Shown here: positions 30,820-59,223 of the stretch, one piece after another
Layout of the letters: the number at the start of each line of letters is the position of its first letter
How positions within the stretch are numbered: the stretch's first letter is position 1
Source: Bdellovibrio svalbardensis
Lineage (GTDB): Bacteria > Bdellovibrionota > Bdellovibrionia > Bdellovibrionales > Bdellovibrionaceae
Direction of reading: 5' to 3'
Length of the DNA: 64,000 bases
Assembly: GCF_029531655.1 (NCBI RefSeq)
Contig: NZ_JANRMI010000002.1
Coordinates: 62,001-126,000, forward strand
Made by a program: the position numbers and the translations under genes
The notes under the pieces: model-generated
What the model saw: only the letters and a program-made list of their open reading frames with translations
Told to the model about the DNA's origin: nothing
Database searches by the model: none

Positions 30820-30902
30820 TTTGTTTCAGTTTGGGACAGAGGGACACTTTCTAGTAAAGGTCCAGCGGTTTTGTGTCGAAAGAACTTATAGGAGTTCCTC
30901 GA

Positions 30903-33674
30903 ATGAAACCACCTCTCGAGCAAACGGGACAATCTAGTCGCTCATCCCATATGGGGCGATCTATAAGATCGCAACAAGGCAGCGCTTTCATCCAAGCGCT
31001 GCTAGCTATTGGCGTTGTCGGCATCATGATTTACTTCTTGGCGCCGACGGTGATTAAAAATCGCCAGCAAGTTACCAAGTCAGCCTCTATCATCACCACT
31101 CGTTTGGCTCTACATTCAATGCTGGATTTCACCCTTTTAGGCGTGAAGCAGCGTTGGTGCTTTTCAGATTCATGGATGCCTGAAAATTGTGGAAAAAGTG
31201 CAACTCCCACAACTCAAGAGATCTTGAATCACCCGCGTTCCATTGAACGAATTTTGATGAAGAAAGAAACCGTGGATTTCCTGGCAGCGATGGGCTATCC
31301 CAACGCTCTTCAGCTTTTGGACAATCAGAAGATCTCCGCGACGATTCCAATTGGCAATTTCTCAACTCTTCATCCAATCTACAAAATCGTTTCAGATCTA
31401 AAAGGCTACCGCGTTTCCGCGTTCAGCGTTGAGATCACCAGAAATACACAGGCCTTGATCCCTGAGTATGGTCGTGAAGTTTATCTCAAAGTGACAGTGA
31501 AGTTGCTCGACGATAAGGGGGCGGTTATCAATGTTGGCAGCAGCCGACTTGAAGCAACGTCCTTTGTCGGGGTTTACCCACGCGAAGTGGGTAGTTTTGC
31601 CTTGCTAGTCGCCAACGATCTCCATTTGGACGTTTCCACAAATGGATCCCAGACTGCCGGTGACTCTTATATCAAAAAGTTTACTTCGAAAAACGCGATT
31701 AAGAACTATGCGGGGATTGTCTTTGATAGCCCGGTATACGTGAATGGCAATATCATTCTTGCAAATGCCTCCACATCACATGATGGTGACACTTCTTATG
31801 CGCCAGTGTCTTTTAATGAAAAAGTGATTTTGGGCGACGGTATGATTGTCCGCAAAGGCAAAGAGTTTACTCCTGTCTCTGCGGGTGGTGAGTCGGATCA
31901 GTTCTGGTATAATATTGCAGAGTTTGGCGGCTTTAGAAAAGGTGTCGACGTCGATGGCGGCCGCGATGGTGGCCTGGACAACTTGTCTGGAAAGCAAGCG
32001 AGTACCGCGGTCGATAAAACTTTGATGCAGCAATGTATCGACAGAACTTTGGCGATGACCGATTTGCGTAAAACTTTGAACAGTACTTTAAGAGGCGCAA
32101 TCACGAAGCAATCTGAAAGCAAGTTTGACTATCGTTTGGGTCTGACCGACGGCAATGTTTTCACCCGACAAAGAAATGAAATCTCGAGTCCAGCGGCGAA
32201 TCCTTCATCTGGCTTGGCAGGCTATAAATATGATTATAGGAACAACGAAAAAGCGGGTCCTATTGCTAAGTATAAACTGGAATTCAACGGTTTAGAGGTA
32301 AAAGGATCGATTCCAGAAAATGGTTCTATCACATTGGAGCCGAAGATTGATCTGACTGATTTGAAGAGAAGTATTTCAAAACAGTTGAGCGACGCCCAGG
32401 AAGATCGTGATCGCCTGACTTCGGATCTTTCTCGCCTTGAATCACAGATTTCCGATGCGGAACGCGATGTTGCCAGTGCTGAGAGCAGTTTGGAAGCTGA
32501 AGAGGCCAAGACTCCTCAAGACAAAAATAGAATTGCAGATCTTGCTGCGGACTTAGATCGTGCGAACAATCGCTTGGATGCTTTAAAAGCGCGAAAAGCA
32601 AATAAAGACAAAGAACTGGCAGATGCCAAAGCAAAGATGGACGATTTGCAGAATCGTTTGGTCAAAGTGGAAGCTGATTCAAAAGTTCAACCGAAGATCA
32701 AGCTGTCAGTGGATGTGCCAAACCCTGATAACACCAATCCAACATTTAAAGACTTTCACGTGGAGTTCGAGCGTGGGGACCTGCTTGTTGATGGTATGGG
32801 GAATCCTAAAGACATCTCCATTTATTTGCAGGCCTTTGATGTTTCCTATGACCGCAGCTATCCTCTTCGCCCTGAGTTCCTGATCAAGACCAATGGTTAT
32901 ATTAACTTCAAAAGAAATGGCTCTGCGTTCATCGCTTACAGCAGTGTTTCTGATAGTTCCGGAAACTCCAAAGGAGCCTTGCCTCCAGGGGATATCAACC
33001 AGGATTTAGAAAAACTTTGTGCGACCCAAGGTACCAGCTCATCAACAGCCTTTGGTGGTGTGGATTGGGGAACTTCATTCACGGGGACCTCAAGAAACTC
33101 TTGGTCATTCACAAATTCTTTTGATGAACGCACGGACTATACTTTTAATGGGACGAACGCCTCAAAAGCGAATGGAACGGCTACTTTTGTGGTTAAATCC
33201 ATGGCGAAAAATTGCATTATCACCGGCGACGCGGATTTCGTCAGTGGCTTCCTGGTGTGTGATAAGTTGATTATCAAAAACCGTTCGACTCCACTTCGCA
33301 TCATTGGTTCTGTTATTGCCGTCAATGGCTTGGAGATTGATGATTCGGCTTACCAAGCCGGCATTCGTTGGAGCACGATTTATCACCCACAGGCAACTTT
33401 TGAGTTGCGCCAGGCGGGTATTTTAAAAGCACAAAACAATACGGACTGCACGCAGATCAATCGTTTCCCGGTATGGCATCCAAGTCCTTCGATCGTAGAT
33501 CTTTCAAATCTTTATCGTTGTAACGCGATCTCATTGCGTTCAAAGGCCGATCCATTCCGCTGGACAACGGTGGATCCAGACTGTGGCGCCGTGCCGGGAG
33601 TGAGTTCGCATATGTGTAAGAACCGCATGGTGCGTTTCTTTGTTCTGGAAGTTTCAAGGGATTCAGGAATATGA
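30903..33674 (+). CDS. Giant prepilin-like protein with coiled coil
   Basis: A 923-residue protein. After a polar 34-residue leader, the segment QQGSAFIQALLAIGVVGIMI resembles a type IV prepilin cleavage site followed by the hydrophobic helix; the usual Glu5 is Gln. The middle is large and mostly beta, with an about 110-residue charged coiled coil near residues 490-600 (SKQLSDAQEDRDRLTSDLSR onward). A second folded region follows with several cysteines. ATG 30903 follows TAGGAG. The stop overlaps the start of the next pseudopilin gene (ATGA). The family is not recognised; PilX-like or tip-pilin roles are possible. Confidence 0.65.
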   Translation: MKPPLEQTGQSSRSSHMGRSIRSQQGSAFIQALLAIGVVGIMIYFLAPTVIKNRQQVTKSASIITTRLALHSMLDFTLLGVKQRWCFSDSWMPENCGKSATPTTQEILNHPRSIERILMKKETVDFLAAMGYPNALQLLDNQKISATIPIGNFSTLHPIYKIVSDLKGYRVSAFSVEITRNTQALIPEYGREVYLKVTVKLLDDKGAVINVGSSRLEATSFVGVYPREVGSFALLVANDLHLDVSTNGSQTAGDSYIKKFTSKNAIKNYAGIVFDSPVYVNGNIILANASTSHDGDTSYAPVSFNEKVILGDGMIVRKGKEFTPVSAGGESDQFWYNIAEFGGFRKGVDVDGGRDGGLDNLSGKQASTAVDKTLMQQCIDRTLAMTDLRKTLNSTLRGAITKQSESKFDYRLGLTDGNVFTRQRNEISSPAANPSSGLAGYKYDYRNNEKAGPIAKYKLEFNGLEVKGSIPENGSITLEPKIDLTDLKRSISKQLSDAQEDRDRLTSDLSRLESQISDAERDVASAESSLEAEEAKTPQDKNRIADLAADLDRANNRLDALKARKANKDKELADAKAKMDDLQNRLVKVEADSKVQPKIKLSVDVPNPDNTNPTFKDFHVEFERGDLLVDGMGNPKDISIYLQAFDVSYDRSYPLRPEFLIKTNGYINFKRNGSAFIAYSSVSDSSGNSKGALPPGDINQDLEKLCATQGTSSSTAFGGVDWGTSFTGTSRNSWSFTNSFDERTDYTFNGTNASKANGTATFVVKSMAKNCIITGDADFVSGFLVCDKLIIKNRSTPLRIIGSVIAVNGLEIDDSAYQAGIRWSTIYHPQATFELRQAGILKAQNNTDCTQINRFPVWHPSPSIVDLSNLYRCNAISLRSKADPFRWTTVDPDCGAVPGVSSHMCKNRMVRFFVLEVSRDSGI

Positions 33675-34156
33675 AGTTAAACAACAAAGGTTTTTCAATT
33701 CTTGAAGCGATGTTGGGTTTGGCGATGCTGACCCTGGTGGGATCATTTTTCATATCCGGAATTACGGACATGAGAAAAGTTGCCAAAGACAGCGGTACGA
33801 AGAATGCCCTCTACAAGCAGATCAATGACGTGATCGAAAATATTCGACCAAATGTTCGTATGTATCAAATCAACTATGGAACCAGCGATGAAGATCGCGA
33901 TCGGGCCCTGGCTGTCGACAAGTTGCCGATGGCATGGGGAAATGGTTCTCTTTCGACGGCAGAAAAATGCCCGGCTTGCCCAGGTCGTTATGGCTTTGTG
34001 ATCCAAGCCTATCCCAATATGAAGGGGCTTTACCTGGTGACTGTTCGAATGAGTCACAAGGATTGGGCGCAAGGTCAACAGACTGAAGAGGGGAAACCTA
34101 TAGCAGTCGGTGGTTATGGATATCTTGACTATCAATTTGTGGTGAATGCGCAATGA
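33671..34156 (+). CDS. Pseudopilin / minor prepilin
   Basis: A 161-residue protein with a textbook prepilin N-terminus: MKLNNKG, cleavage, FSILEAMLGLAMLTLVGSFF, with Glu at +5 and a hydrophobic helix of about 20 residues. It is expected to be processed by the prepilin peptidase and built into a type IV pilus or type II-like pseudopilus. The C-terminal domain has a CPACPGRYGF segment, a likely disulfide or metal loop. It overlaps both neighbours by 4 bases (ATGA), so it is translationally coupled in the operon 30903-36364. Confidence 0.85.
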   Translation: MKLNNKGFSILEAMLGLAMLTLVGSFFISGITDMRKVAKDSGTKNALYKQINDVIENIRPNVRMYQINYGTSDEDRDRALAVDKLPMAWGNGSLSTAEKCPACPGRYGFVIQAYPNMKGLYLVTVRMSHKDWAQGQQTEEGKPIAVGGYGYLDYQFVVNAQ

Positions 34157-35124
34157 AGCTAAATCAAAAAGGTTTTTCTCTTTCTGAAGTTCTGGTGGGT
34201 GTGGCGTTGATGTCCATCGTGGGCATGGTCGCCGCTTCATTTTTTGTGTTTTCAAAGAAAGCCCAGACCGAAATTACCAACGAGATTGAAGATAAAACCG
34301 ACAGTATCATTGCCGAGCGCATGCTTCTTAAAGACTTGAAGTACTCGGAGCCAAGTTTCAATAACGTCTTGGTTAAAGACGATAAAGGTTTGGCGTTTTT
34401 TGCTTTTGACTCTGAACGCTCATCAAGAACTTTGGATGACATGCCTCGCATGTTAACTTTGCAAATGGCAGGCAAAAAAGAATTTAGCTTTTTGATTGTC
34501 AATGACAAGCTGGGCGGTTCTTTGATGTATACACCAAGTGCCGCTTATAATATTCCTTATGTTCCTAAAGACCCCAATGTTGCAGCACCTTTGAACTTTG
34601 TTTCTTTGAATAAAATGAACAATGGAAAGAACACGGTCAAAAGTGCCAATGCGATGCTTTGGAATCCGGGTGTGATTCTGATGTTGGATACTCCGGCCAT
34701 GGTGCGGGAGATGACGCAGTTTGGGCCCAACTACAGCAGACCTGCAAGATCACCTATTTTTGTTGGTGTGGTTCAAGGGGAAGGCGAAACGAGATTGGCG
34801 CCGATTGCTCTTACTGAGTTTATCGATAAAACAAATCCCATGTATCCAAATGAGACAATTGAGAATGAAGATTCCTTCTTAAGAGAAATACCGCCGATGG
34901 GAGGCGCAGCGCCTCTTGTTCGCTTGAAGGCAGTCTCAATTATAAAGTACTATATAGAGCAGGACAATAGGACCGGAAAAGTGAATCTGTGGCGGAGCAT
35001 GTTTGACGGAAGAAACTTCACGGGTGGAGCAATGATTGCTTCGGATATCGAGAAGATTGAGTTCTCCCGCAAAGATCCGCACGACTCAGTGATTTACTTT
35101 AATATTGTTCGCAAGGGGAAATGA
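34153..35124 (+). CDS. Pseudopilin / minor prepilin (large)
   Basis: A 323-residue protein with a clear prepilin N-terminus: MKLNQKG, cleavage, FSLSEVLVGVALMSIVGMVA, with Glu at +5 and a hydrophobic helix. The body is long for a pseudopilin, in the range of GspK/PilW-like members that cap pili. It ends with an aromatic beta region (SVIYFNIVRKGK). It starts inside the stop of the preceding pseudopilin gene (ATGA overlap). The helix and leader are nearly the same as in that gene, suggesting duplication of the N-terminus or common ancestry. Confidence 0.85.
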   Translation: MKLNQKGFSLSEVLVGVALMSIVGMVAASFFVFSKKAQTEITNEIEDKTDSIIAERMLLKDLKYSEPSFNNVLVKDDKGLAFFAFDSERSSRTLDDMPRMLTLQMAGKKEFSFLIVNDKLGGSLMYTPSAAYNIPYVPKDPNVAAPLNFVSLNKMNNGKNTVKSANAMLWNPGVILMLDTPAMVREMTQFGPNYSRPARSPIFVGVVQGEGETRLAPIALTEFIDKTNPMYPNETIENEDSFLREIPPMGGAAPLVRLKAVSIIKYYIEQDNRTGKVNLWRSMFDGRNFTGGAMIASDIEKIEFSRKDPHDSVIYFNIVRKGK

Positions 35125-35140
35125 TCTAAAGGGGGCTTGT

Positions 35141-36364
35141 ATGTTGAAGTGGACTTTAGCGTCTATTGCTATGAGTTCAGTGGCTTATGCTGGAGATCCA
35201 GGCACGGTGAATTCCGGAGCTGGAGCATCCGCAGGGTTTCAGGGTGTTGTCTTATCTGGACAAGTGACCCGATCCAATCTTGACGGTGTCAACATTGTCG
35301 TTACCAACAGTTGTTTTGGTACCAATCTTCGACATGTCACCAATCCGATTTCTCCTCTTGGTAAGGTTAAAATGAAATTGGTCATCAGAGACCACGGCGC
35401 CGAGAAAACATTCATCGTTTCTTATCCCGGTTCCTTGGTCGTCGAGGGCGGTCTGACGGATGCGAGAGCTATTCCCGCAGGGGAAATTTCGAATCCAATC
35501 GGCTTGACTGCGACGGGAGCGATTACGGGCAATGTGGTTCGTGTGAATGTCCCTGTGGCTTCGCAGGTCACTGTTGATGAAAATGGAAATATCAATCAAG
35601 GCAGTATTGAAGCGGAACTGGTGTCTGTTTCGTTCGCACAGGTTTTCGATTGGACGCCTACAAATGCGGACTATCAGAGTGGATATTATAAATTAGACAC
35701 CCACCATGGTGGCGGTAATGTGGCGGACTATCGTGGTTACACGGGACCGCTTTCAGCCAGCGTTTATACTTCAGGATCTAAAGATAAGAAAACCTATAAC
35801 GTCGCGGCCTATTTCCCAGGGGAGTTTGGTTTCTGCGGTGGTTACTTCTCTCCATTGATGGTGTTCTTTGATGAAGCTCGTCCGCAGTTCTCTGCTAACG
35901 TTAGTTTCCCGCTCAATCCTACAGGCAAAACAATGTGGCCTGAGGCTGGTTCAAAAGGGGCCTTCGTCGCCTTCGACCGTGATGGTGACGGGAAGATCTC
36001 GAAAGCCAATGAGTTGTTTGGCTCTGAGGAAGGGAAATTTAAAAACGGGTTTGAAGCTCTTCGTGAGTTTGATTCCAACAAAGACGGTGTGATCGATAGC
36101 AAGGATAAAGATTTCGCGAAGCTCATGCTGTGGTTTGATAAGAATGCCGATGGAATCAGTCAAAAAGAGGAGCTTGTTCCTTTGAAAACGCGCATCAAGT
36201 CGATTTCTTTAAAATATGACAGCTCTTCGACGAACGGAATTGGCGCCCGCGCTGAGGTTCGCGAAAGAAGTGAATTCGTGTTTGTTGAAAAGGGCAAAGA
36301 TAAAAAAGGCCAGGAAAAAAGAGGTCAGATCCTTGACGTCTGGTTTGCTCCCAACGCGAAATAG
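35141..36364 (+). CDS. Secreted EF-hand-type calcium-binding protein
   Basis: A 407-residue exported protein with a signal peptide (LASIAMSSVAYA). The first half is beta-rich and unassigned. The C-terminal part has three calcium-loop-like segments: DRDGDGKISKANE (about residue 279), DSNKDGVIDSKD (about 311) and DKNADGISQKEE (about 333), typical of EF-hand or dockerin-like repeats in secreted bacterial proteins. ATG 35141 follows AAAGGGGG. It lies 16 bases after the second pseudopilin, so it is the last gene of the operon and may be exported or assembled together with the pilin-like proteins. Confidence 0.8.
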   Translation: MLKWTLASIAMSSVAYAGDPGTVNSGAGASAGFQGVVLSGQVTRSNLDGVNIVVTNSCFGTNLRHVTNPISPLGKVKMKLVIRDHGAEKTFIVSYPGSLVVEGGLTDARAIPAGEISNPIGLTATGAITGNVVRVNVPVASQVTVDENGNINQGSIEAELVSVSFAQVFDWTPTNADYQSGYYKLDTHHGGGNVADYRGYTGPLSASVYTSGSKDKKTYNVAAYFPGEFGFCGGYFSPLMVFFDEARPQFSANVSFPLNPTGKTMWPEAGSKGAFVAFDRDGDGKISKANELFGSEEGKFKNGFEALREFDSNKDGVIDSKDKDFAKLMLWFDKNADGISQKEELVPLKTRIKSISLKYDSSSTNGIGARAEVRERSEFVFVEKGKDKKGQEKRGQILDVWFAPNAK

Positions 36365-44243: not shown

Positions 44244-44250
44244 GCGGTTG

Positions 44251-47200
44251 ATGATGAAGTTACTTCTGATCACTTCAATACTGATGGGATTATCAAGTGC
44301 ACAGGCCAACCCTGTTGGTATTCACTTGAGCGGACATATCAGTAATAGCGCGACAGGGACATCGTTGACCTCGGCAAATGTCGACTTCGTTATTAAGGTC
44401 CTAAGCCCGGGCGGCTGTCTTCTTTATTCTGAAAATCATTTAGGTAAAAACCTTTCTTTGACTGCTGGAAATTTTGACATCGATATTGGAACTGGGACAA
44501 CAGCTTACAATGTGTATGATAGCGTAACTCCACAAAGCACAGATTCCGTCGTTAAAGTTTTTGATAAAGCAGCACCTTCATTGTCTGGTTTGACTAATGT
44601 AGATGCCGGTGGGTGCCCAGGCGGGGCTTATACTCCGGCAGCGAATGATCTGCGTCAGGTCCGCATCGAGTTTGATGCTCATGATGGTTATGGTGTTCAG
44701 ATTATTCAGCCCTATCACCGGGTGACGAATATCCCTTTTGCGTTGTTAGCCGAAAAGTCCAGCGATTCTGCAAGTCTGCAAGGAAAAGTACCGAGCGATT
44801 TTGTTTTGAATTCTGATGTCGCAACGGTTGTTCCGGCAAATGAAACCGATCCTTCGGTGAAGGCTTTTGCGAAAGCGAATCTGCCTTCTTGTAATGTGGG
44901 CGAGGTGCTAAAAGCTTCAGGTGGAGTTCTGAGTTGCGTGAGTGCCGGTGGTGCTGTTGCTTTGGCAACGACAACTTCGACGGGCATCGTGCAAGCGGGC
45001 AGTGGCCTGGCTATAGATGGCGCCGGTGTTTTATCCACTGACAATGCTGCGATCAAATCTGGCTTGGGCTTGGGAATAATGGATGTCTCAGGCTTGCAAA
45101 CTGCTTTAAACGATCGCGTTTTGTATTCTCAAATGCCGACTTGTACAGCGGGACAAACTTGGACATTCGTTTCCCCAGTGGGTGGATTTGTTTGTACTTC
45201 GACCTCGATCACCGCTTCGCAGGTGAGTGATTTTAGCGCGGCCGTTGATGCGCGAATCGCTGCTGATGCCACAAAACTACCTTTGAGCGGCGGCACCATG
45301 ACTGGTGCTATCGATATGAATGGTCAGAACTTAACTCTGACCGGTTATATTACGATGAATCCTTCGAAATCTTTGCACTTGTCTAACAACGCTGTGGATC
45401 CAGTGGGCTTGACTCCTGCAGACAAAGGTAAGATTTGGTTTAACTCGACAAGCAATGAAATGAAATACTGGGATGGGACTCAGGCCAAAGTTATTGGGAC
45501 TGCGGGTGCGGGCCTGCAGTCAATGAATGGTTTGAGCGACAATGCTCAGACTTTTGCTTTGGGCACGAGTGGTACTGACTTTAATATTAATTCCGCTTCT
45601 GGCGTGCATACTTTCAATTTACCAAGTGCTTCTGCTTTAAATCGTGGTCTTTTAACCGCAGCGGATTATACGACATTCTCTAATAAACTTTCTGCGGTCA
45701 GTGGCAGTACTTTGCCTTCTGCCCAAATTTGGGTTGGTAATGCCGGTGGGAATGCGGCCGCCGTATCACTCAGCGGTGATGTGACAATTGATATTGCGGG
45801 TGTTACAACTTTAAAAAACACTGGCGCTGCTGGAACTTACTACAAAGTGACAACGGATGCGCAAGGTCGCGTTTCAAGTGGTGTCTCGACACTGGCTGTT
45901 TCAGATGTAACAAATCTTCAAACTGATTTGGATGCGAAAGTTCCATACGCTCAATTGGCAACTTGTACTGATAATCAAACTTTGAAATTTATTTCACCAG
46001 TGGGTGGCTTTACGTGTGTGAACATTGCAATCACCGCTTCACAGGTGACTGATTTCAGTACGGCTGTGGATGCGCGAATTGCCGCAGATACGACGAAGCT
46101 GCCAGTTGCTGGTGGCACCATGACAGGTACCCTCAACATGGGTGCCCAAGATATTACGAATGCGGGAAATTTATCTTTAGCTTCAAATAAAAATCTTCAA
46201 TTGGGCTCTTATGCAGCGGATCCATCAACGGCAGGTTGGGGAGCAACGGAAAAAGGTCGGACTTGGTTTAATACCACCAGTAACCAGATTAAATATTGGG
46301 ATGGAGCTGCAGTGCAGGCTCTGGGTATTTCTGGTGCGGGTCTAACTTCATTCAATGGTCAAGTAGGCTCGACTCAAACTTTAGCGGTGCCTGGCACTAC
46401 GGGGGCAGCACCAAATTGGTCTTCTGCAGGGAATGCTCATACATTGAATATCCCGATGGCATCTTCTGTGGGAACAACAGCGGGTCTTTTAAGTAAAACT
46501 GATTACGATTCTTTCGCTGGTAAACAGGCGGCCGGTAACTATGTTACGGATCTAACTGGCGATGTGACGGCCATGGGGCCTGGCTCTGCGGCAGCAACGA
46601 TTGCTGTGGGCGCTGTTAATTCTTCTAAAATCTTAGATGGCACTATTTTAGGTGCTGATATGAATTTCACTGGCGTCAACAATGCGACTTCAGGAATTGT
46701 AGTCGTTGATTCAGCGGGTAAGTTTAATAACTTCACCTGTGCAACCGCAGGTCATGTCGCAACCTGGACCGCGACGGGTTGGACATGTCAAGCTCCAGCA
46801 ACCAGTGGAACGGTCACAAGCGTAGGAACAGGCACGGGACTAACGGGTGGTACGATCACTGGCTCTGGCACTATTTCATTAGCTAACACCGCGGTGACTG
46901 CGGGTTCTTATGGTTCAGCAACTCAAGTTGGAACTTTCACAGTCGATGCTCAAGGTCGTTTGACTGCAGCGGGCAATGTGACGGTGACTCCGGCGTGGTC
47001 TTCGATCACAGGGACGCCGACAACTCTTTCGGGTTACGGCATCACAGATGCTCAGTCTTCCACATTGGCGGATGGTAAAATTCTAGTTGGTAATGCTTCG
47101 AATGTAGCAACGGCTCAAACGATGAGCGGTGATGCCACACTATCTAATGCTGGAGCGTTGACATTGGCCTCAAGCGGTGTGACTGCGGGAACTTATTCTA

Positions 47201-50200
47201 AAGTGACTGTCGATGCAAAAGGTCGCGTGACTGTTGGAACGAGTATCGCTTCAGGTGATGTGACAACGGCTCTTGGTTATACGCCGCTAAATAAAGCGGG
47301 CGATGTGATGACCGGAAACTTTGGTCTTAATGGTGTGACCTCAGATCCGGGCGGTCTTGTCGCTGGTGATAGAGGTAAGATGTGGTATCGCACGGATACC
47401 AACGAAGTTAAATATTGGAACGGAACAAGTGCGGTTGCTCTTGGTGTTTCCGGTGCCGGTCTTACTTCATTGAACGGTCAAAATGGTTCCACTCAAACAT
47501 TTGCAGTAGGAACGACGGGCGCAGCGCCAGCATGGTCATCATCTTCCAATACTCATACATTGAATATCCCATTGGCGTCTTCTGCAGGAACAACAGCAGG
47601 TCTGTTAAGTAAAACAGATTACGATTCTTTCGTAGCAAAACAACCAGCAGGTAACTATGTCACAGCGTTGACTGGTGATGTGACTGCGGCGGGGCCAGGT
47701 TCAGCGGCAGCGACGATTGCTGCGAATGCAGTGACGACTGGTAAAATTCTTGATGGCACTATTTTAGGCGCTGATTTGAATTTCACTGGCGTGAATACAG
47801 CAACTTCAGGAATTGCTATCGTAGATTCAACGGGCAAGTTTAATAACTTCGCCTGCGGAACTGCGGGCCATGTTGCAACGTGGACGGTGACTGGTTGGGC
47901 CTGTCAGGCTCCGGCAACAAGTGGAACTGTGACTAACGTTGCGACGGGAACTGGATTGACTGGTGGTCCAATCACAGGGACTGGTACCATTTCATTGGCT
48001 AATACCACAGTTACGGCAGCGTCTTATGGCTCTGCAACTCAGGTGGGAACGTTCACCGTAGATGCTCAAGGTCGCTTGACTGCTGCATCGAATGTGACGG
48101 TGACACCAGCTTGGACTTCGATCACGGGCAAGCCGACAACACTTGCGGGCTATGGCATCACAGATGCTCAGTCTTCAACTTTGACAAATGGGAAAGTCTT
48201 TATCGGTAATGGTTCAAATGTTGCCGCGGAACAGACTGTCTCTGGCGACGCGACTATATCAAATACTGGCGCTTTGACACTTGCTTCAAGTGGTGTGACC
48301 GCGGGAACTTACTCGAAAGTCACAGTGGATACAAAAGGTCGTGTGACTGTGGGAGCGAATATCGCTTCTGGAGATGTAACGACAGCGTTGGGCTTTACTC
48401 CTCTAAATAAAGCCGGTGATGTGATGTCAGGGCTTTTGGGTCTTAACGGTGTTGCTACAGATCCAGGTGGGCTTGTCGCCGGTGACAAAGGTAAGATGTG
48501 GTATCGCACGGATACTAATGAGATTAAATACTGGAACGGCTCTACGGCAGTTGCTCTTGGTGTTTCAGGAGCAGGATTGACATCTTTAGGCGGGCAAACA
48601 GGTTCTGCGCAAACGTTTGCGATTGGAACAGCGGGCGCTGCGCCAGCATGGTCTTCAGGTTCTAATGTTCACACTTTGAATATTCCTTTGGCGTCTTCTG
48701 CGGGTACAACTGCAGGTCTTCTTAGCAAAACTGATTACGATTCTTTCGTAGCGAAGCAACCAGCAGGTAACTATTTGACAGATTTAACTGGGGATATAAC
48801 TGCCACGGGTCCAGGATCTGCAGCTGCGACGATTGCGGCAAATGCTGTAACCACTGCGAAGATCAACAATCTCGCAGTCACAGATGCAAAAATTAATGAT
48901 GTGTCTGTCAATAAGATCACCAGTGGCTCAGGAAAATACTTTACTTATGCACCCAACAACATGGCTTGTACAAACGGTCAGACGTTGTCAAAAACAGCAA
49001 ATGGCTGGGAGTGTGCCAATGCGAGTGCTGGCACAGTGACAAGCATCATCGCTGGTACGGGCTTAACGGGTGGAACAATCACAAGCACAGGCACTATTGG
49101 TCTGGGGACAGAACTGACGGGGGTAAACGGATTGGCGACAACGGGCTTCGTTCAAAGAACGGGCGCGGGTGCTTACTCTACAGTGATTGGCAATACGGTC
49201 GCTTCCAATAATACAGTCGTTCAGCGTGATGGTTCCGGTGTCAGTGGTTTTTATGGTGTTGGAATTCAAGGTTCCACAAGTGGTACTGCGACGATTCAGG
49301 CGCCAACTTCTTTCACGAACTATACTCTAACTTTGCCAACGACGGCGGGGACTGCCAATCAAGTTTTGCAAACCAATGGATCTGGTGTTCTGTCCTGGGT
49401 GGCTCAGTCTGCGGGTGCTGATAATTTAGGTAATCATACGGCAACTCAAAATATTCAATTGGGTGCAAACTGGCTTAGTGGCGATGGTGGCAATGAAGGC
49501 ATTCGTGTTGATGCAACTGGAAATGTTGGTATCAATGCGGCAACGCCCGGCGCTCCTTTAGATATTCAAAATGTCGGTGCCGCAGACAGAATTAGAATTT
49601 CTACCAACGTGGCTGGAAACTATAATGCGATCGGAAACTACAATACCAATGAGATGTACATCCAGCCGTACAGTGTAACCAGAATCTTGCGTGGATATCT
49701 GTATACGGCGGGAAATCAGAAAATGACGACCACGGATACGGCTATTTTGGTTGATAATAATAACGTTTCTTTGGCGGTCGATAAAGGTTCTGTGGGAATT
49801 GGCACAAGCACTCCTGCTGCTCCTCTTGATGTGATCGGTGCTGCAACCACGTCAAATTCTTATGTCAGGGTCATGTCGTTGACAGATACGACGGCGATGG
49901 CAACCGATGTGGGTGGAAGTATTTCCTTCCTGGGTAAATACACATCAGGTGGCGCTAGCACTGATTTGGCCGGAATTAAAGCCGGTAAAACAAATGCTAC
50001 GACAGGTGACTATAGCGGATATCTTTCTCTCTGGACACGCAATAATGGTTCGACACCTGCTGAACGCATCAGAATTGATAATACTGGTAAGGTCGGAATT
50101 GGAACTGTAACTCCATCTATTAAATTGGACGTAGCCGGTGCGGTTCGCGTCGGTACGGATGCGACGGCTTGTGCGGCTGGTATCGCGGGTGCGATTCGTT

Positions 50201-53200
50201 ATAACGCCGGCAATGTCGAGTATTGTAACGGAACAGCATGGACGGCCTTTGCTGCGAGTGGGGCTGGTATTACTTCGTTGAATGGTTTGACAGGAGCTAC
50301 ACAAACTTTTGCGACGGGAACATCTGGAGCAGATTTCAATATCAATTCCACTTCAACAACACATACCTTCAATTTCCCCAATGCCTCTGGGGCAAATCGT
50401 GGTCTTTTGACTTCTGGCGACTGGAACACCTTCAATAGCAAATTAGGAACCGGATCAGCATTTTCTGGTGACGTATCTGGAACTTCCACAACAATGTCCG
50501 TTGATAAAATTAAAGGCACAGCGGTTAGCGGAACTGCACCTACTGATACTCAGTTCCTAGTCTATAACAACGGTGCGACTCAGTATGCTCCTGTGAGTAT
50601 GTCGGGTGACGCAACGATGGCTAACACGGGCGCTGTGACTTTGAAAAGCACCGGTACTGCTGGAACTTATACAAAGGTAACAACAGACGCTCAAGGTCGC
50701 GTGACTTCTGGTACTACACTTGTTGCTACGGATATCCCAGGATTAGATTGGGCTAAAATTACCTCTGGTAAGCCAACGACACTGATTGGTTACGGAATCA
50801 CTGATGGCGTGCAAAACACTGGTGGCACTCCAAGCATGCAAACAGGTCTGTTTGCTTCTCGTCCCGCATTTGGAACTGCGGGCAGAATTTATATCTCTTC
50901 TGACACGAACACGATCTATCGCGACACGGGTTCAGCGTGGGTTGCGATTGGTGACGGTGCTGGTGCAGGTACTGTGACTTCGATCACAGCTGGAACTGGT
51001 TTAACGGGTGGTACAATCACTTCAACGGGAACTATTGGTTTAGGTACAGAGTTGACAGGATTGAACGGACTTTCAACGACGGGTTTTGTTAAGCGCACCG
51101 GTGCAGGAACTTATACTACCGCGGCAGCGAGCTTAACGGCCGATGTGTCTGGAGTTTTGCCGATTGCAAACGGTGGTACAAATTCTTCGACTGCTTTGAC
51201 GAACAATCAGCTGATGTATTCAGGTGCGGGTGCGATTAAAGAGCTGGGCGTAATGAATGACGGGCAAATCGTGGTCGGCAAAACTTCGAATGCGCCACAA
51301 ATCGTTACGATGAGTGGCGATGTGACTGTATCGAATACGGGTGTGACGACGGTTGGAAAAGTGAATGGCACAACAGTCACGGGTGTGGGTTTAGCAACGA
51401 ATAACATTTTGCAAAACACAGGTGCTGCGATCACTGCGAATAACGTGTTAGTAAGTAACGGAACTGCGACGGGTGTGACAGCACTAACAAGCCCTGCAAG
51501 CGGTGTGTTGACTTCTTCGGGTACTGTTCCTGCTTGGTCTACATCTTTGCCGGCGACGATGGGTGGTACAGGGCAGACGAGCTTTGCAATCGGTGATTTG
51601 CTGTATGCTTCGACAACGACAGCAATGTCTCGCTTGCCAGCTGCAACATCTGGTTATGTTTTAACAAGTAATGGTGCGGGTACTGCTCCTAGTTGGCAGG
51701 CAGTATCAGGTGTTATCGCAGGATTGACTGCGGGACGTGTGACTTTGTCTACGGCTGCTAATTCGGTGGGTGATAGTCCGAACTTTACATTCAACTCATC
51801 ATCTGGCGCGTTGGCGATCGGTGGTACTACACCAGCCTTTACATCTGCAGGTGCATTGACTGTGCAAGGTGCTGCAGGTTCAGCGACGACTGTTGGTAAC
51901 TCGGGCACGACTTCTAGCTTGGTATTGCAGTCTGGTTCCGGTGGTATTTCTCTTGCCGGAAACACTTCTGTTTCTGGTTCGAATACCTTTGCGACTGGTA
52001 CCGGTGCGGTAAGCTTGAATGGTGCGACGACAGTTGCAGCCAATCAGAACTTAACGATGGCTTCTGGCACGGGGGTTTATACTCAAACCTTCACTGGGAC
52101 AACAACGGATGCGGCCTCGATCATCGCGAATGCATTGACGACAGGAACAGCGCTGAATTTGACTTCTTCAAGCGCAAGTTTAAATTCAACTGATGGCTTG
52201 TTGTATGTTGCGAACACAGGTGCTTCAACTTCTGGAATGGTTGCTAGAATTCAGTCGAACTCTACAGCTGGCACAGGTTTGACGGTATTGGCAAATGGCA
52301 ATGTCGGTGCGGGAACTGCAGCGCCCACATCTGTTCTTGATATTAACGGTGCAGAGACTATGCGTGGTATGGCAGCTCCAGGGCTGTCGGCTGCGGGACA
52401 AGGAAGAATCTATTTTGATTCTACTGCGAATAAGTACAAAGTTTCTCAAAATGGTGGAGCCTACGCGGACCTAGTTCCTGCTGCAGGTGGTGGAGCACTT
52501 TCTAGTATTACCCCTGCAACGACTACGAATACCATCGACAACTTGAACTTCGGACAAATCTGGAACTGGTCATCAGCCACGACTCAAAGTCCAATGAGCA
52601 TCAGTGCGAACGCTCTGACTACAGGTAGTTTGATGAGCCTGACTACTTCTAATGCGACGGTGAACTCTACGAATGGTTTGTTGTATGTAGCGAATACAGG
52701 TGCTTCAACTTCAGGAACTGTTGCAAGAATTCAGTCGAATTCAACGGCTGGTACAGGGCTTACAGTTCTTGCGAACGGCAACGTCGGTATTGGAAATGCC
52801 TCTCCGACATGGCTACTGGATGTTAACGGCGCAGCTCGGTTGAAAGATACATTAACTCAAGAAGGTGTCAGTTCTGCCTCGGGAGATTTGAATTACCATC
52901 AGCTACTCATGGATACTCATAATTATAATATTAATCCAAAATCGGGAATCGCTTTTGGCGGATATTACAATGCAGTTCCAAGCACCACGTTCTTTTCTGG
53001 AATCAATGGCGGTAAGGAAAATGGAACTTCAGGCAATACTGCTGGATATTTAGCATTAGTTACACAGCCGAATGCGGGCAGCCCGACAGAGCGTTTGCGC
53101 ATAAGCTCCACTGGTTACGTCGGAATCGGTACGACAGCTCCATCATCAGTTCTCGATGTTAACGGTGCTGTAACCGTGCGCGGAATGGTGGCGCCAGCGG

Positions 53201-54342
53201 TCTCTGCTGCAGGTCAAGGAAGAATCTATTTTGATTCAACATCGAATACTTACAAAGTTTCTCAAAATGGTGGAGCGTATGTGGATTTGATTAGTACTGC
53301 CACAGGAGATTTCAAAGCAGATGGTTCCGTCAGCATGACCGGTCCATTGAAGGCCTCTACAGGATCTGCGGCGGCGCCATCGCTTACCTTTAGTTCAGAT
53401 CCTAATACCGGCTTTTACTCAGGTGGTGCTGGACTGCTAGAGATGACTACGACTGGAGTTCAAAGATTCGAAGTGAGCAGTGTGGGTCTTATTTCTCCAA
53501 ACGCAAATGGTCCTAAATTGACTTCCACCGCTGGAACGGCGGCAGTACCAGCCTTTGCATTCAATGGAAATACCAATTCAGGAATGTGGTCGCCTGGTTC
53601 AAATGCATTGGCATTCTCTTCAAATGGTTCAGAACGTATGAGAATTGATTCGAGTGGCAACGTTGGGATTGGCACTACTTCTCCAAGTTACAGTCTCGAT
53701 GTGCAAAAAGATCAGAATGCTGCGACCTCACTTTACGTTCGTAACTGGGTAAGCAGTGGTGGTTCCGCTGCTTCTACTGTCGCAGTTTCAACTTTTGACG
53801 TTGGTGGTGGTCTATGGGCCTTTCCTTCGTTTGGTACTAACGCCGACCTCCAAAAGCGCAACAAAGTCGTATTGGAAGCATCAACTGGTAACGGCGTTTT
53901 GATCACAGCAGGTTCGGCAACAGGTACTGTCGGATTGCGAACAATAGCAAGTACGTCACCGTCATTGTTGGTAGATACAACTGGCAACGTCGGTATCGGC
54001 ACGACCGCACCTAACAGCAGACTGGAAGTCGCCGGTGGTTCTCTGACAACGGCTTACTCTGTGATCGCTTCTTTAACTGTCGACTTTTCTACCGCAAATA
54101 CTATTGCTACAACGGCGGCAGCAGGCACCTTGGTTTTAAATAATATGCGCGACGGAACAAGTTATACTTTGATTGTGCAAAATACAGGTAGCTATACGTT
54201 GTCGGGATCAAGTGTCTCTACCTGGCGTTGTGCTCCGACTTGTCCTAGTGCGGTTGTTTCAAATAGTTCGGGGCATGTTCTGATTACAGTTTTGAAGGCT
54301 GGCACGACAGCTTACGTGAGCTATATCACTGATATGCAGTAA
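44251..54342 (+). CDS. Giant repetitive fibre protein, mosaic-adhesive-trimer-like
   Basis: A 3363-residue exported protein with a signal peptide (LLLITSILMGLSSAQA). Residues about 20-165 form a beta-rich N-terminal domain with a SPGGCLLYSEN phrase and paired cysteines. The rest is phage-tail-fibre-like: repeats such as YKVTTDAQGRVSSG, LTGDVTAMGPGSAAATIA, and GNVGIGTTSPSYSLDV recur throughout. This layout matches the mosaic adhesive trimer proteins reported in Bdellovibrio bacteriovorus, trimeric surface fibres that recognise prey; the assignment here is by architecture. The last about 95 residues (from VIASLTVDFSTANTIATT) look like a distinct beta tip with a CAPTC pair. ATG 44251 follows TTG 44248. 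The lipoprotein precedes it and the RCC1 protein follows. Confidence 0.85.
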   Translation: MMKLLLITSILMGLSSAQANPVGIHLSGHISNSATGTSLTSANVDFVIKVLSPGGCLLYSENHLGKNLSLTAGNFDIDIGTGTTAYNVYDSVTPQSTDSVVKVFDKAAPSLSGLTNVDAGGCPGGAYTPAANDLRQVRIEFDAHDGYGVQIIQPYHRVTNIPFALLAEKSSDSASLQGKVPSDFVLNSDVATVVPANETDPSVKAFAKANLPSCNVGEVLKASGGVLSCVSAGGAVALATTTSTGIVQAGSGLAIDGAGVLSTDNAAIKSGLGLGIMDVSGLQTALNDRVLYSQMPTCTAGQTWTFVSPVGGFVCTSTSITASQVSDFSAAVDARIAADATKLPLSGGTMTGAIDMNGQNLTLTGYITMNPSKSLHLSNNAVDPVGLTPADKGKIWFNSTSNEMKYWDGTQAKVIGTAGAGLQSMNGLSDNAQTFALGTSGTDFNINSASGVHTFNLPSASALNRGLLTAADYTTFSNKLSAVSGSTLPSAQIWVGNAGGNAAAVSLSGDVTIDIAGVTTLKNTGAAGTYYKVTTDAQGRVSSGVSTLAVSDVTNLQTDLDAKVPYAQLATCTDNQTLKFISPVGGFTCVNIAITASQVTDFSTAVDARIAADTTKLPVAGGTMTGTLNMGAQDITNAGNLSLASNKNLQLGSYAADPSTAGWGATEKGRTWFNTTSNQIKYWDGAAVQALGISGAGLTSFNGQVGSTQTLAVPGTTGAAPNWSSAGNAHTLNIPMASSVGTTAGLLSKTDYDSFAGKQAAGNYVTDLTGDVTAMGPGSAAATIAVGAVNSSKILDGTILGADMNFTGVNNATSGIVVVDSAGKFNNFTCATAGHVATWTATGWTCQAPATSGTVTSVGTGTGLTGGTITGSGTISLANTAVTAGSYGSATQVGTFTVDAQGRLTAAGNVTVTPAWSSITGTPTTLSGYGITDAQSSTLADGKILVGNASNVATAQTMSGDATLSNAGALTLASSGVTAGTYSKVTVDAKGRVTVGTSIASGDVTTALGYTPLNKAGDVMTGNFGLNGVTSDPGGLVAGDRGKMWYRTDTNEVKYWNGTSAVALGVSGAGLTSLNGQNGSTQTFAVGTTGAAPAWSSSSNTHTLNIPLASSAGTTAGLLSKTDYDSFVAKQPAGNYVTALTGDVTAAGPGSAAATIAANAVTTGKILDGTILGADLNFTGVNTATSGIAIVDSTGKFNNFACGTAGHVATWTVTGWACQAPATSGTVTNVATGTGLTGGPITGTGTISLANTTVTAASYGSATQVGTFTVDAQGRLTAASNVTVTPAWTSITGKPTTLAGYGITDAQSSTLTNGKVFIGNGSNVAAEQTVSGDATISNTGALTLASSGVTAGTYSKVTVDTKGRVTVGANIASGDVTTALGFTPLNKAGDVMSGLLGLNGVATDPGGLVAGDKGKMWYRTDTNEIKYWNGSTAVALGVSGAGLTSLGGQTGSAQTFAIGTAGAAPAWSSGSNVHTLNIPLASSAGTTAGLLSKTDYDSFVAKQPAGNYLTDLTGDITATGPGSAAATIAANAVTTAKINNLAVTDAKINDVSVNKITSGSGKYFTYAPNNMACTNGQTLSKTANGWECANASAGTVTSIIAGTGLTGGTITSTGTIGLGTELTGVNGLATTGFVQRTGAGAYSTVIGNTVASNNTVVQRDGSGVSGFYGVGIQGSTSGTATIQAPTSFTNYTLTLPTTAGTANQVLQTNGSGVLSWVAQSAGADNLGNHTATQNIQLGANWLSGDGGNEGIRVDATGNVGINAATPGAPLDIQNVGAADRIRISTNVAGNYNAIGNYNTNEMYIQPYSVTRILRGYLYTAGNQKMTTTDTAILVDNNNVSLAVDKGSVGIGTSTPAAPLDVIGAATTSNSYVRVMSLTDTTAMATDVGGSISFLGKYTSGGASTDLAGIKAGKTNATTGDYSGYLSLWTRNNGSTPAERIRIDNTGKVGIGTVTPSIKLDVAGAVRVGTDATACAAGIAGAIRYNAGNVEYCNGTAWTAFAASGAGITSLNGLTGATQTFATGTSGADFNINSTSTTHTFNFPNASGANRGLLTSGDWNTFNSKLGTGSAFSGDVSGTSTTMSVDKIKGTAVSGTAPTDTQFLVYNNGATQYAPVSMSGDATMANTGAVTLKSTGTAGTYTKVTTDAQGRVTSGTTLVATDIPGLDWAKITSGKPTTLIGYGITDGVQNTGGTPSMQTGLFASRPAFGTAGRIYISSDTNTIYRDTGSAWVAIGDGAGAGTVTSITAGTGLTGGTITSTGTIGLGTELTGLNGLSTTGFVKRTGAGTYTTAAASLTADVSGVLPIANGGTNSSTALTNNQLMYSGAGAIKELGVMNDGQIVVGKTSNAPQIVTMSGDVTVSNTGVTTVGKVNGTTVTGVGLATNNILQNTGAAITANNVLVSNGTATGVTALTSPASGVLTSSGTVPAWSTSLPATMGGTGQTSFAIGDLLYASTTTAMSRLPAATSGYVLTSNGAGTAPSWQAVSGVIAGLTAGRVTLSTAANSVGDSPNFTFNSSSGALAIGGTTPAFTSAGALTVQGAAGSATTVGNSGTTSSLVLQSGSGGISLAGNTSVSGSNTFATGTGAVSLNGATTVAANQNLTMASGTGVYTQTFTGTTTDAASIIANALTTGTALNLTSSSASLNSTDGLLYVANTGASTSGMVARIQSNSTAGTGLTVLANGNVGAGTAAPTSVLDINGAETMRGMAAPGLSAAGQGRIYFDSTANKYKVSQNGGAYADLVPAAGGGALSSITPATTTNTIDNLNFGQIWNWSSATTQSPMSISANALTTGSLMSLTTSNATVNSTNGLLYVANTGASTSGTVARIQSNSTAGTGLTVLANGNVGIGNASPTWLLDVNGAARLKDTLTQEGVSSASGDLNYHQLLMDTHNYNINPKSGIAFGGYYNAVPSTTFFSGINGGKENGTSGNTAGYLALVTQPNAGSPTERLRISSTGYVGIGTTAPSSVLDVNGAVTVRGMVAPAVSAAGQGRIYFDSTSNTYKVSQNGGAYVDLISTATGDFKADGSVSMTGPLKASTGSAAAPSLTFSSDPNTGFYSGGAGLLEMTTTGVQRFEVSSVGLISPNANGPKLTSTAGTAAVPAFAFNGNTNSGMWSPGSNALAFSSNGSERMRIDSSGNVGIGTTSPSYSLDVQKDQNAATSLYVRNWVSSGGSAASTVAVSTFDVGGGLWAFPSFGTNADLQKRNKVVLEASTGNGVLITAGSATGTVGLRTIASTSPSLLVDTTGNVGIGTTAPNSRLEVAGGSLTTAYSVIASLTVDFSTANTIATTAAAGTLVLNNMRDGTSYTLIVQNTGSYTLSGSSVSTWRCAPTCPSAVVSNSSGHVLITVLKAGTTAYVSYITDMQ
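46321..48850 (+). repeat. Tandem 1.12-kb repeat within the fibre gene
   Basis: Three successive units begin at 46321, 47440 and 48556, spaced 1119 and 1116 bases apart (373 and 372 codons); the third diverges after about 290 bases. Each begins near the sequence GVSGAGLTSLNGQ and continues through SKTDYDSFVAKQPAGNY and GDVTAAGPGSAAATIAANAV to the next unit. The units keep the reading frame, so their number can change without a frameshift. Confidence 0.85.
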
Positions 54343-54362
54343 AAATATTGGGAAAATATAAA

Positions 54363-57240: not shown

Positions 57241-59223
57241 TTATATCTTTTTTAAGTCAAACTTACGCAGCATTTCGTCAGCCCAGGCTTGAGGCAGCGC
57301 CAAAATATTTTTCGTGATGATTCCCGGGTAAATATTAAGAGAATTTTTGTTGAAGTTATCGGTGTTAAACAGAGGTGGGAAATGCTGATAAAGGATGTAT
57401 CCCCAAGATCGCAGAAGGTTTTCTAAATCCGGAGCTATATCCGTTCTGTCATTTTCAACATACAAAACAGGCTTTAAACGACGAATGGTTTTTTCTGCCC
57501 CGAACAAAGCCTCCAGCTCCATGCCTTCAATGTCGAGCTTCATGAAATCCAAGCGATCCAGCTCGAGCGAATCCAGAGTTACCATTTGTATCGTTTGATG
57601 GGGATCTTCTGAAGATTGGTCTAGCTTCAATTCCAATGCGCCAAAGTTGCCAAGGCGAGAATATTCCGGCGTTTCGATCTTGCGAGAACTGTTCTTCTGC
57701 GCGAGACCTTCTTTTCGAACTTCAACTTGAGTAAGATTTTGTAGAAAACAGTTCTGGCGATTTATGGTCCACAAGAATTCCTGAGGTTCATAGCAGATCA
57801 CTTTGCCCTTGGGACCGACAAGATTTCCGAAGGCAACGCTGTGGGCGCCCAAGTGCGCGCCAGCTTCAACAACAACCATTCCTGGCTTGATCAGTTCGGA
57901 AAATAAAATAACTTCCGCTTGCGAATATTCACCATATTCTTTGAGTGCGCGGCCAACGAAAAAATCTGTAACAACGGTTAGAAAAGGACCTTGTCGCGTC
58001 TGCACCAGATCAATCACACCACCTGTGGATGAAATATTATTGGGATGATAGATGGCATCACTTTTTATTCGTTGGTCTTTAGGCCATTCTTCGTTTTTAA
58101 GGAACTGCAAAGAACGTGTGATTGTTTCCTGCCATTGGCCCCACTGCGTCTGATGTAAAATTCGCATTGAGTTATACCAAGAGGAAATTTGTGGTTGAGT
58201 TGTGTCTGGCTCGCATGAAAAGGTAAACCAGCCCATGACTCGATTGAGTAAAAGCACGGGGACTCCAAGAGCCCCAGCTAGATGCGCAGGTCCTGAGTCG
58301 ACAGAAATCACCAAATCCATGTTCATTAAAAAACCCGCCAAATCTTCAGGTCCACGAATATAAGAGCTTAGATTTTTGAGTCGGGAATCTTTAAGTCCGT
58401 TGTGACTGTGCTCTGGATACACGGTGAAAAATTCGAACTGATCGCTTGAATCCAGCAAACCTTTTATGACATCTGCGGGGACACTCCTGAGATAGTCTTC
58501 CGCAAATTTGGTGTTTCCTTGCCAAGCTAAAGCGACCTTTTTCTTGGATGATGAAGTTAATGACTTCCAGGATTCAACAAAGGGATTTAGCACCTGTAAA
58601 AAAGGACTTCCATCAATCTCAGACAATGGCAAATTTAAAACCCGTGGGCAGCTAAGTGAAGGCAGCCAAAAGTCAAAGTCGACTTGATCCACACCCTTGA
58701 TTTCCACCAAGGCACTGACGCCGCGTAAAGATCGCAGCAGCGGAAATATTTCCTCTGGAGCTGCCAAAATAACTTTTGCGCCTAAAGTCTCAAAGTAGGG
58801 GGCAAAACGAGAGAAACATATAATGTCCCCCAGGCCACCTTCGCAGGCGATGAGCAGGGTCTTTCCCCAGAGTGATTCTCCGGACCATAGAGGCTTCTTC
58901 TTTGTAACGAGTTCCCCACCGAAGTGACCAGAGCCTCTGATGCTGTCAAAGAAAGCCAATCCTTCTTGCCATTTTCCAAGGGCAATAGAGAGTCTGGCAC
59001 GGTAAAAGCGAAGGTTTACGTTTTCCGGCTGATGCGTCTGCAATGCCGTCACTAAGTTGTAGGCTTCCTGATATTTTTGCTGATGGGACTTTAAAATCAT
59101 CCACAAATAAGCTGTATTAAAATCGCATGATTCCAAAGGGAATTGGTTTAAAATCTCTTCAGCCTCAATGAGTTGAGTTGCTGCAAGAAGGCCAACGATT
59201 TTGTCACTTAGCTGAGAGTCCAT
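57241..59223 (-). CDS. TPR - GT9-like glycosyltransferase - FkbM methyltransferase fusion
   Basis: A 660-residue cytoplasmic protein with three parts. Residues about 5-100 form helical TPR-like repeats (FNTAYLWMILKSHQQKYQEA). Residues about 118-375 resemble heptosyltransferase-type GT9 enzymes: EGGLGDIICFSRFAPY around 128, then ISVDSGPAHLAGALGVPVLL around 306. Residues about 445-610 form an FkbM-type methyltransferase with the SAM motif VVEAGAHLGAHSVAFG and the MKLDIEGMELEAL block. Such multi-domain proteins decorate surface glycans. Its start lacks a strong ribosome site. It is followed downstream in transcription by nothing on the same strand within 180 bases; a second FkbM gene lies upstream on the same strand. 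Confidence 0.85.
   Translation of the reverse strand: MDSQLSDKIVGLLAATQLIEAEEILNQFPLESCDFNTAYLWMILKSHQQKYQEAYNLVTALQTHQPENVNLRFYRARLSIALGKWQEGLAFFDSIRGSGHFGGELVTKKKPLWSGESLWGKTLLIACEGGLGDIICFSRFAPYFETLGAKVILAAPEEIFPLLRSLRGVSALVEIKGVDQVDFDFWLPSLSCPRVLNLPLSEIDGSPFLQVLNPFVESWKSLTSSSKKKVALAWQGNTKFAEDYLRSVPADVIKGLLDSSDQFEFFTVYPEHSHNGLKDSRLKNLSSYIRGPEDLAGFLMNMDLVISVDSGPAHLAGALGVPVLLLNRVMGWFTFSCEPDTTQPQISSWYNSMRILHQTQWGQWQETITRSLQFLKNEEWPKDQRIKSDAIYHPNNISSTGGVIDLVQTRQGPFLTVVTDFFVGRALKEYGEYSQAEVILFSELIKPGMVVVEAGAHLGAHSVAFGNLVGPKGKVICYEPQEFLWTINRQNCFLQNLTQVEVRKEGLAQKNSSRKIETPEYSRLGNFGALELKLDQSSEDPHQTIQMVTLDSLELDRLDFMKLDIEGMELEALFGAEKTIRRLKPVLYVENDRTDIAPDLENLLRSWGYILYQHFPPLFNTDNFNKNSLNIYPGIITKNILALPQAWADEMLRKFDLKKI

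Follow-up and report, generated by a model that had tools for sequence, protein, structure and literature searches.

A probable attack-phase pilus-tip operon with a calcium-binding fourth protein in Bdellovibrio svalbardensis

In a 64,000-nucleotide stretch of the Bdellovibrio svalbardensis genome (contig NZ_JANRMI010000002.1, positions 62,001 to 126,000; hereafter the window), four adjacent genes encode a 923-residue prepilin-like protein, here called the giant, two shorter prepilins (p2 and p3) and a predicted exported calcium-binding protein (p4). We consider it likely that this operon encodes the heteromeric tip complex of a type IV filament, most likely a type IVa pilus, in the attack phase of Bdellovibrio. 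The genes lie as an initial annotation of the window had described: the giant and p2 overlap by 4 bases (33671-33674), as do p2 and p3 (34153-34156), and a gap of 16 bases separates p3 from p4. The ATG of the giant is directly preceded by AGGAG; an alternative GTG at 30873 opens the same frame but falls within a promoter-like element. The features of the operon are:

30855..30881, + strand: degenerate FliA/attack-phase promoter-like element, TAAAG-N16-TCGAAA, with 3 mismatches against the published TTAAG-N16-CCGATA at the exact spacing; better copies occur at the equivalent site in relatives
30903..33674, + strand: giant prepilin, 923 residues, K/X-type, Gly-1/Gln+5, orthologue of Bd2726 of B. 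bacteriovorus HD100
30903..30980, + strand: prepilin leader of the giant, 26 residues, predicted cleavage after Gly26; the modelled helix begins at residue 27
32355..32681, + strand: helical hairpin ('coiled coil'), giant residues 485-593, a variable module that some members of the family lack or replace
33183..33671, + strand: C-terminal domain of the giant, residues 761-923, its most conserved part, with many invariant Cys
33671..34156, + strand: p2, PilV/GspI-type minor pilin, 161 residues, Glu+5, orthologue of Bd2725
34153..35124, + strand: p3, PilW/GspJ-type minor pilin, 323 residues, Glu+5, orthologue of Bd2724
35141..36364, + strand: p4, predicted Sec-exported calcium-binding protein, 407 residues, orthologue of Bd2723
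35852..36361, + strand: domain of p4 resembling the FrpC self-processing module, residues 238-407, with Ser237 just before it at the catalytic-Asp position

A conserved cassette with one unusual pilin in three

The surroundings of relatives' matches, together with 25 loci from named genomes and after removal of identical proteins, yielded 66 distinct giants; the loci are labelled nearly all as Bdellovibrio, Pseudobdellovibrio, Bdellovibrionales or Bacteriovorax/Bacteriovoracaceae, and one as 'Deltaproteobacteria'. The query P0001 matched 28 of 59 relatives, spread over 7 of 34 genera. A single-sequence giant query found no match in the named genomes, and an alignment-based search was required. 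The order giant-p2-p3-p4 was present in 59 of the 66 and p4-giant-p2-p3 in 4, with contig ends cutting the other 3; the order, which the initial annotation had proposed to look for in other Bdellovibrio, recurs around 63 of the 66 giants. Homologues outside pilin operons, named there as evidence that would count against the proposal, were not among these loci, every uncut giant being in the same pilin operon. An ATGA junction ends the giant in 38 of 66 cassettes and p2 in 46 of 64. Many relatives carry 2-4 cassette copies per genome, and three genomes (L065, L066 and L068) have two in tandem; an extra upstream p4, found in 4 of the 59 canonical cassettes, is in tandem arrays the p4 of the neighbouring cassette. 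The window's genome itself holds a second whole operon (C2:651.6-657.4 kb; products of 990, 159, 353 and 417 residues). The window copy and this paralogue belong to separate clades of a 65-giant tree, each clade with many species, so the duplication is old.

Co-occurrence was assessed over 290 genomes of the phylum. The giant profile matched 76 of them, 18 through the coiled coil alone (E 2e-5 to 9e-4, confined to approximately positions 396-623); these were left out, leaving 58. As at most 3 giant candidates were scored per genome, copy numbers in this search are lower bounds. A p4 match at E ≤ 1e-60 was found in 55 of the 58 giant genomes, and none of the 290 had such a p4 without a giant; in one of the three giant genomes lacking a strong p4 (G208), a contig end cuts the p4 adjoining the giant. 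The four-gene set is a conserved cassette, recurring beyond chance. In G035, a complete cassette has a lone p4-like gene (L061:8455-9867, + strand) nearby on the opposite strand.

The giant had been described as prepilin-like, with Gln for Glu at +5 and a coiled coil, and each of these features was recovered. Its predicted cleavage site reads QQ-G26^S27-A-F-I-Q. Across the family, Gly is at -1 in 62 of the 63 giants with a residue there (Ala in 1), while Glu is at +5 in 0 of 63 and Gln in 37. A pilin-like N-terminal helix, whose lack the initial annotation would have held against its own proposal, is present in the AlphaFold2 model as a 57-residue helix (27-83) immediately after the predicted cleavage site, followed by beta-rich domains and an antiparallel helical hairpin (485-534/541-593). 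The hairpin is the least conserved part of the giant (consensus share 0.22-0.30, gaps 0.30-0.35), whereas the C-terminal ~160 residues are the most conserved and are rich in invariant Cys. The coiled coil was dropped as the giant's defining feature, being a variable region and the sole source of the 18 spurious genome matches. A whole-giant fold search gave coiled-coil matches only, leaving the non-coil domains unplaced. Among the best 60 of 86 matches to PDB profiles there was likewise only the coil, plus one weak N-terminal Geopilin match (E 0.24), and no GspK model was among the giant's matches listed.

The two clear pseudopilins of the initial annotation were confirmed by the prepilin N-terminal model PF07963, which window p3 matches above and window p2 below the cut-off, and by Glu at +5. 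Gly-1 is present in 64 of 64 p2 and 62 of 63 p3 (one X), and Glu+5 in 63 of 64 p2 (the other has Asp) and all 63 p3. PF07963 was matched by all 15 p2 relatives scanned (best 3.1e-7) and by all 15 p3 relatives. The p2 relatives also matched PilV (6/15, best 4.5e-7), GspI (6/15) and ComGE (12/15), and the p3 relatives PRK10557 (11/15), ComGE (10/15) and GspJ (2/15, best 3.1e-5).

In trios of the GspIJK/PilVWX type, the single member without Glu5, named GspK or PilX, marks the tip subunit. The cassette has the same composition, exactly one pilin of three being without Glu+5. The suggestion that the giant replaces the usual tip subunit is supported in so far as the giant appears as a first subunit of K/X type that caps two ordinary minor pilins; its placement on the filament is what we infer from this. 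The one-in-three pattern recurs in the type II secretion system (T2SS)-like set of this genome, five GspG-H-I-J-K-like pseudopilin genes of which the last encodes a Glu5-less member of 419 residues; the genome contains two giant cassettes and at least three other complete trios of one Glu5-less and two Glu5 pilins.

Apart from the giant cassettes, six minor-pilin cassettes (L130-L135) were noted in this genome (G000) at C4:122-126 kb, C5:223-227 kb, C1:881-885 kb, C1:250-254 kb, C1:618-620 kb and C2:349-352 kb. By length and residue 5, the trios comprise 309 (Leu5), 691 (Glu5) and 301 (Glu5) residues in L130, 314 (Tyr5), 685 and 299 in L131, and 861 (Leu5), 170 and 360 in L133; L132 and L135, read by eye, also show the one-in-three pattern, and L134 is a pair only. 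A prepilin of 685-691 residues occurs in three of the six, that of L130 with a MIDAS-like DNSNS motif (by eye). Beside the L132 trio, which has a 691-residue prepilin, L132:4968-6497 (- strand) encodes a 509-residue protein with a weak, sub-cut-off match to a reprolysin-like metallopeptidase (E 2e-4). The giant profile does not match the 861-residue Glu5-less first subunit of L133, so the 'giant first' layout may have arisen more than once.

The trio could instead form the tip of a T2SS, or dedicated secretion, pseudopilus with p4 as its secreted substrate. The matches of p3 and p2 relatives to GspJ and GspI models, a Glu5-less giant that fits the role of GspK, and a type II-like secretin and ATPase adjoining the five pseudopilin genes all agree with this. 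That set, however, already has a complete trio with its own Glu5-less last member, and a tip cassette in 2-4 copies in many relatives contrasts with one tip per T2SS; we regard this explanation as unlikely. Like the GspI/J/K tip, the cassette has a trio with one oversized Glu5-less member; it differs in having four genes including p4, in being unlinked to secretion genes, in its multiplication and in the absence of a GspK model among the matches. As initially noted, no secretin, ATPase or prepilin peptidase lies nearby: none of the pilus machine families searched was found within the window, and elsewhere the genome has 7 T2SSE ATPases above cut-off, 4 secretins and a single prepilin peptidase.

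A Tad/Kil pilus offers another setting, in which the trio would be the Bdellovibrio version of the KilLMN Tips of Myxococcus xanthus. Those Tips belong to a predator and are interchangeable, paralogous three-pilin clusters whose one large member combines a beta scaffold with two long helices, and Herrou et al. 2025 predicted Tips in B. bacteriovorus too (PMC12075869); the genes of that predicted Tip are unnamed in the main text and may overlap this operon. In addition, tadC mutants share the class I phenotype described below (Duncan et al. 2019), and the Tad genes flp1/flp2 are under FliA regulation (PMC5430801). The KilLMN pilins are nevertheless of the TadE/F/G class, and the available part of that paper mentions no fourth calcium protein (PMC12075869). 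By contrast, the p2 and p3 relatives all carry the N-methyl motif of PF07963, and none of the 15 + 15 matched a TadE or TadF model at E 0.1. TadG/Tad models were absent from the matches listed for 29 giants (25 of 73 families), and in this genome a separate set of short pilin-like genes with Flp-like N-termini adjoins the Tad-type ATPase and secretin. On balance, a Tad tip seems to us quite improbable.

p4 and the FrpC self-processing module

The initial annotation had described p4 as a secreted calcium-loop protein, possibly the cargo or adhesin of the filament. A Sec-type leader (by eye) and EF-hand loops are indeed present, and Pfam finds EF-hands only; yet p4 is more than an EF-hand protein or loose cargo: its C-terminal half is related to the FrpC self-processing module, every uncut cassette includes it, and the HD100 orthologue has been modelled within a complex of four proteins (PMC12034629). 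The p4 profile matched the FrpC module at E 1.2e-26. With the p4 model, the only Foldseek matches at E ≤ 0.001 were two FrpC module entries (PDB 6sjw/6sjx; E 8.5e-9 and 1.8e-8), and alignment of the model to the FrpC module by VIA-align gave Z 18.8 with a root-mean-square deviation of 2.6 over 154 residues, the next unrelated row having Z 6.4. For p4 residues 45-230, Gram-positive pilus adhesin folds were considered and rejected (Z 5-6.4, below the trusted level). The PilY1 beta-propeller model PF05567 matched neither p4 nor the giant at E 1; a search for PilY1 in this genome gave no match, but the same search also matched none of 14 control genomes.

The FrpC module is folded by calcium, and cleavage of its Asp414-Pro415 bond yields an anhydride able to join a lysine; formation of this anhydride requires the Asp side chain in the published chemistry (PMC7078468). 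Residue equivalences between p4 and FrpC were derived from our alignment and the published FrpC numbering. At the position of Asp414, 62 of 65 p4 proteins, the window's included, have Ser, and one each has Asp, Ala and Lys. Pro415 is kept in 65 of 65 and, where a residue is present, Asp579 in 63 of 63, Trp451 in 64 of 64 and Trp519 in 63 of 64. The Asp499 and Asp521 calcium loops are kept and the Asp462 loop is seen as FDRDGDGKI in the p4 alignment, while the fourth calcium site (Asp419/421/423) is mostly lost in the family. The residues kept indicate that the fold and calcium binding of p4 are conserved, and those changed that its self-processing chemistry has very probably been lost. Compared with FrpC, p4 shares the fold, three calcium loops, the tryptophan pair and the scissile-bond proline, and differs in the change of the catalytic Asp to Ser, the loss of the fourth calcium site, its Sec leader and its place in a pilin operon.

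That p4 might be an active, or conditionally active, module covalently linking the pilus tip to prey or to itself would suit the conserved fold, calcium loops, proline, Asp579 and Trp451, as well as a relative that has retained Asp-Pro. With Ser for the reacting Asp in 62 of 65 proteins, a chemistry that needs the Asp side chain (PMC7078468) and a fourth calcium site mostly lost, we hold this to be highly improbable. The relative in question, L076:4300-5568 (- strand), encodes the sole Asp-Pro p4 of the 65 (SSDPL, with an insertion before the motif), and its sequence makes it a natural candidate for an active self-processing module. Module-only matches were found in other, longer open frames of the phylum; the module domain, but not full-length p4, occurs outside the operon.

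HD100 orthologues and the promoter upstream of the giants

By sequence, the counterpart of the window operon in B. bacteriovorus HD100, which we take genome G006 to be, is Bd2723-Bd2726, and that of the paralogue is Bd2209-Bd2212. The published lengths of the two sets (384, 325, 162 and 901; 414, 328, 153 and 995) all land on start codons in the two cassettes of G006. The giants of the window and HD100 are 51% and the p4 proteins 57% identical. The window operon and its G006 counterpart are both flanked by genes that, from their protein sequences, are presumably odhA, odhB, gpmA and a hutI-like gene, and three further neighbours are common to the two. The annotated 901-residue start of Bd2726 corresponds to mature residue +8; it lies past the cleavage-site Gly, which hides the prepilin motif of this protein.

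Abulude et al. 2025 described the products of both operons as predation-linked complexes of four proteins in the attack phase, in which the largest protein serves as hub; they predicted these by AlphaFold-Multimer, with interface predicted template modelling (ipTM) scores of 0.837 and 0.852, and tied Bd2210, Bd2211, Bd2212 and Bd2723 to predation loss (PMC12034629). The operons are orthologous and their flanking genes conserved; that study presents novel complexes of hypothetical proteins. In its available text, 'pilin' does not occur and 'pilus' occurs once, prepilin analysis, self-processing module and promoter are absent, and Bd2724 and Bd2725 carry pilus/T2SS annotations from which no pilus conclusion is drawn (PMC12034629). 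Duncan et al. 2019 placed the Bd2210::tn mutant in class I (no attachment, killing or rounding) alongside pilT, tadC and aglS, and listed Bd2726 among putative cyclic di-GMP binders, confirmed by mini-Tn-seq as needed for predation. The loss of attachment in Bd2210::tn, like that in pilT, also argues against a T2SS pseudopilus. In the literature searched, which included few subscription papers, preprints or supplements, the operon was not linked to a pilus tip, a self-processing module or a promoter. What this analysis adds is a proposed tip mechanism, the probable silencing of the module and the link to the promoter; that the operon exists and matters for predation was known beforehand.

The attack-phase promoters of HD100 carry TTAAG-N16-CCGATA in 92 of 140 cases (PMC3627812). 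We compared this consensus with 61 usable upstream regions of the 66 giants, five (L033 twice, L047, L067 and L080) being dropped as their start or upstream sequence was missing. At spacing 16, 16 of 61 regions matched with ≤1 mismatch and 34 of 61 with ≤2, compared with 0.0 and 1.4 in Markov shuffles. Other spacings gave 0-8 matches at ≤2 mismatches, so that the peak lies exactly at the published spacing. Matches with ≤1 mismatch numbered 28 in 1.66 Mb on both strands, the upstream regions of these loci included. Eight other pilin genes of this genome (six cassettes, gspG-like and pilA-like) had no match at ≤2 mismatches.

Several observations weigh against an attack-phase type IVa pilus tip. 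The swapped-box control at spacing 16 was not empty (4 of 61 at ≤1 and 12 of 61 at ≤2 mismatches), so shared ancestry inflates the promoter counts; 14 of 61 regions had no match even at 3 mismatches, and the window copy and that of its nearest relative (L034) both have 3, the paralogue in the same genome having 2. The window giant, p2 and p3 reached no full-length T2SS or type IV pilus family cut-off and gave partial sub-cut-off matches only. The giant model has a mean predicted local distance difference test (pLDDT) score of 79.5, which drops to 59-65 across the N-terminal half of the helix (residues 31-60). There is no FimU/GspH-type adaptor in the operon. As tadC and pilT mutants share the attachment defect, the phenotype cannot separate type IVa from Tad pili, and the localisation of the proteins on the filament is deduced from their features.

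Proposed mechanism and its meaning for predation

In the mechanism that we favour, the giant, p2 and p3 would be exported as prepilins and cut by the only prepilin peptidase detected in the genome, and their N-terminal helices would bundle as in GspI/J/K or PilV/W/X. Being without Glu+5, the giant would need no subunit above it and would sit at the very end, where it would expose a large body rich in disulphides together with the long helical hairpin that this lineage has. p4 would cross by Sec, fold with calcium and cap the giant, occupying the PilY1 position of other type IVa pili. Its C-terminal domain would be a self-processing module that has kept the fold, most calcium loops and the scissile-bond proline; it should not clip and link, because the reacting Asp is lost. 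The tip would prime pilus assembly and make the first productive contact with prey. The gene order, prepilin features, domain homology, conservation and the promoter motif in relatives were observed in this analysis, and the predicted complexes, attack-phase expression and predation phenotypes are published for the HD100 orthologues (PMC12034629; Duncan et al. 2019); the choice of pilus, the tip position, the disulphides, the capping and the binding target of the tip would follow from these. The closest parallel is with the fimU-pilVWXY1 type IVa tips, which also combine translationally coupled minor pilins with a large calcium-binding exported protein and, in Myxococcus genomes, form several paralogous clusters (PMC13190605, PMC6060248). 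Here, in contrast, p4 is no beta-propeller PilY1, the giant itself bears the large exposed body and there is no FimU-type subunit.

Three other genes of the window were noted. An open frame of 3364 residues (44248-54342, + strand), which has a secretion-type leader and matches no family above cut-off, ends 5 bases before a gene (54348-57026, + strand) for an 892-residue protein. This protein has a leader-like N-terminus and 14 stretches of RCC1_2 repeats, and is probably a secreted RCC1 beta-propeller in a bacterial predator. The third (57241-59223, - strand) encodes a 660-residue protein with TPR, glycosyltransferase-9-like and FkbM methyltransferase matches.

This reading would bear on how Bdellovibrio first engages its prey productively. 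A wider, tentative proposal, which we think possible but doubtful, is that Bdellovibrio arms its attack-phase pili from a wardrobe of tips, and that in the giant cassettes a silenced (Asp-to-Ser) RTX-type clip-and-link cap replaces PilY1 as a calcium-dependent sensor of prey contact. The start annotation in the type strain conceals the prepilin site, and a clip-and-link fold has apparently been reused as a structural part. As pilus tips with a calcium cap, two operons needed for predation, so far 'hypothetical complexes', would gain a testable identity, one that points to the part to tag, to the calcium site to test and to why the operons might not replace each other.

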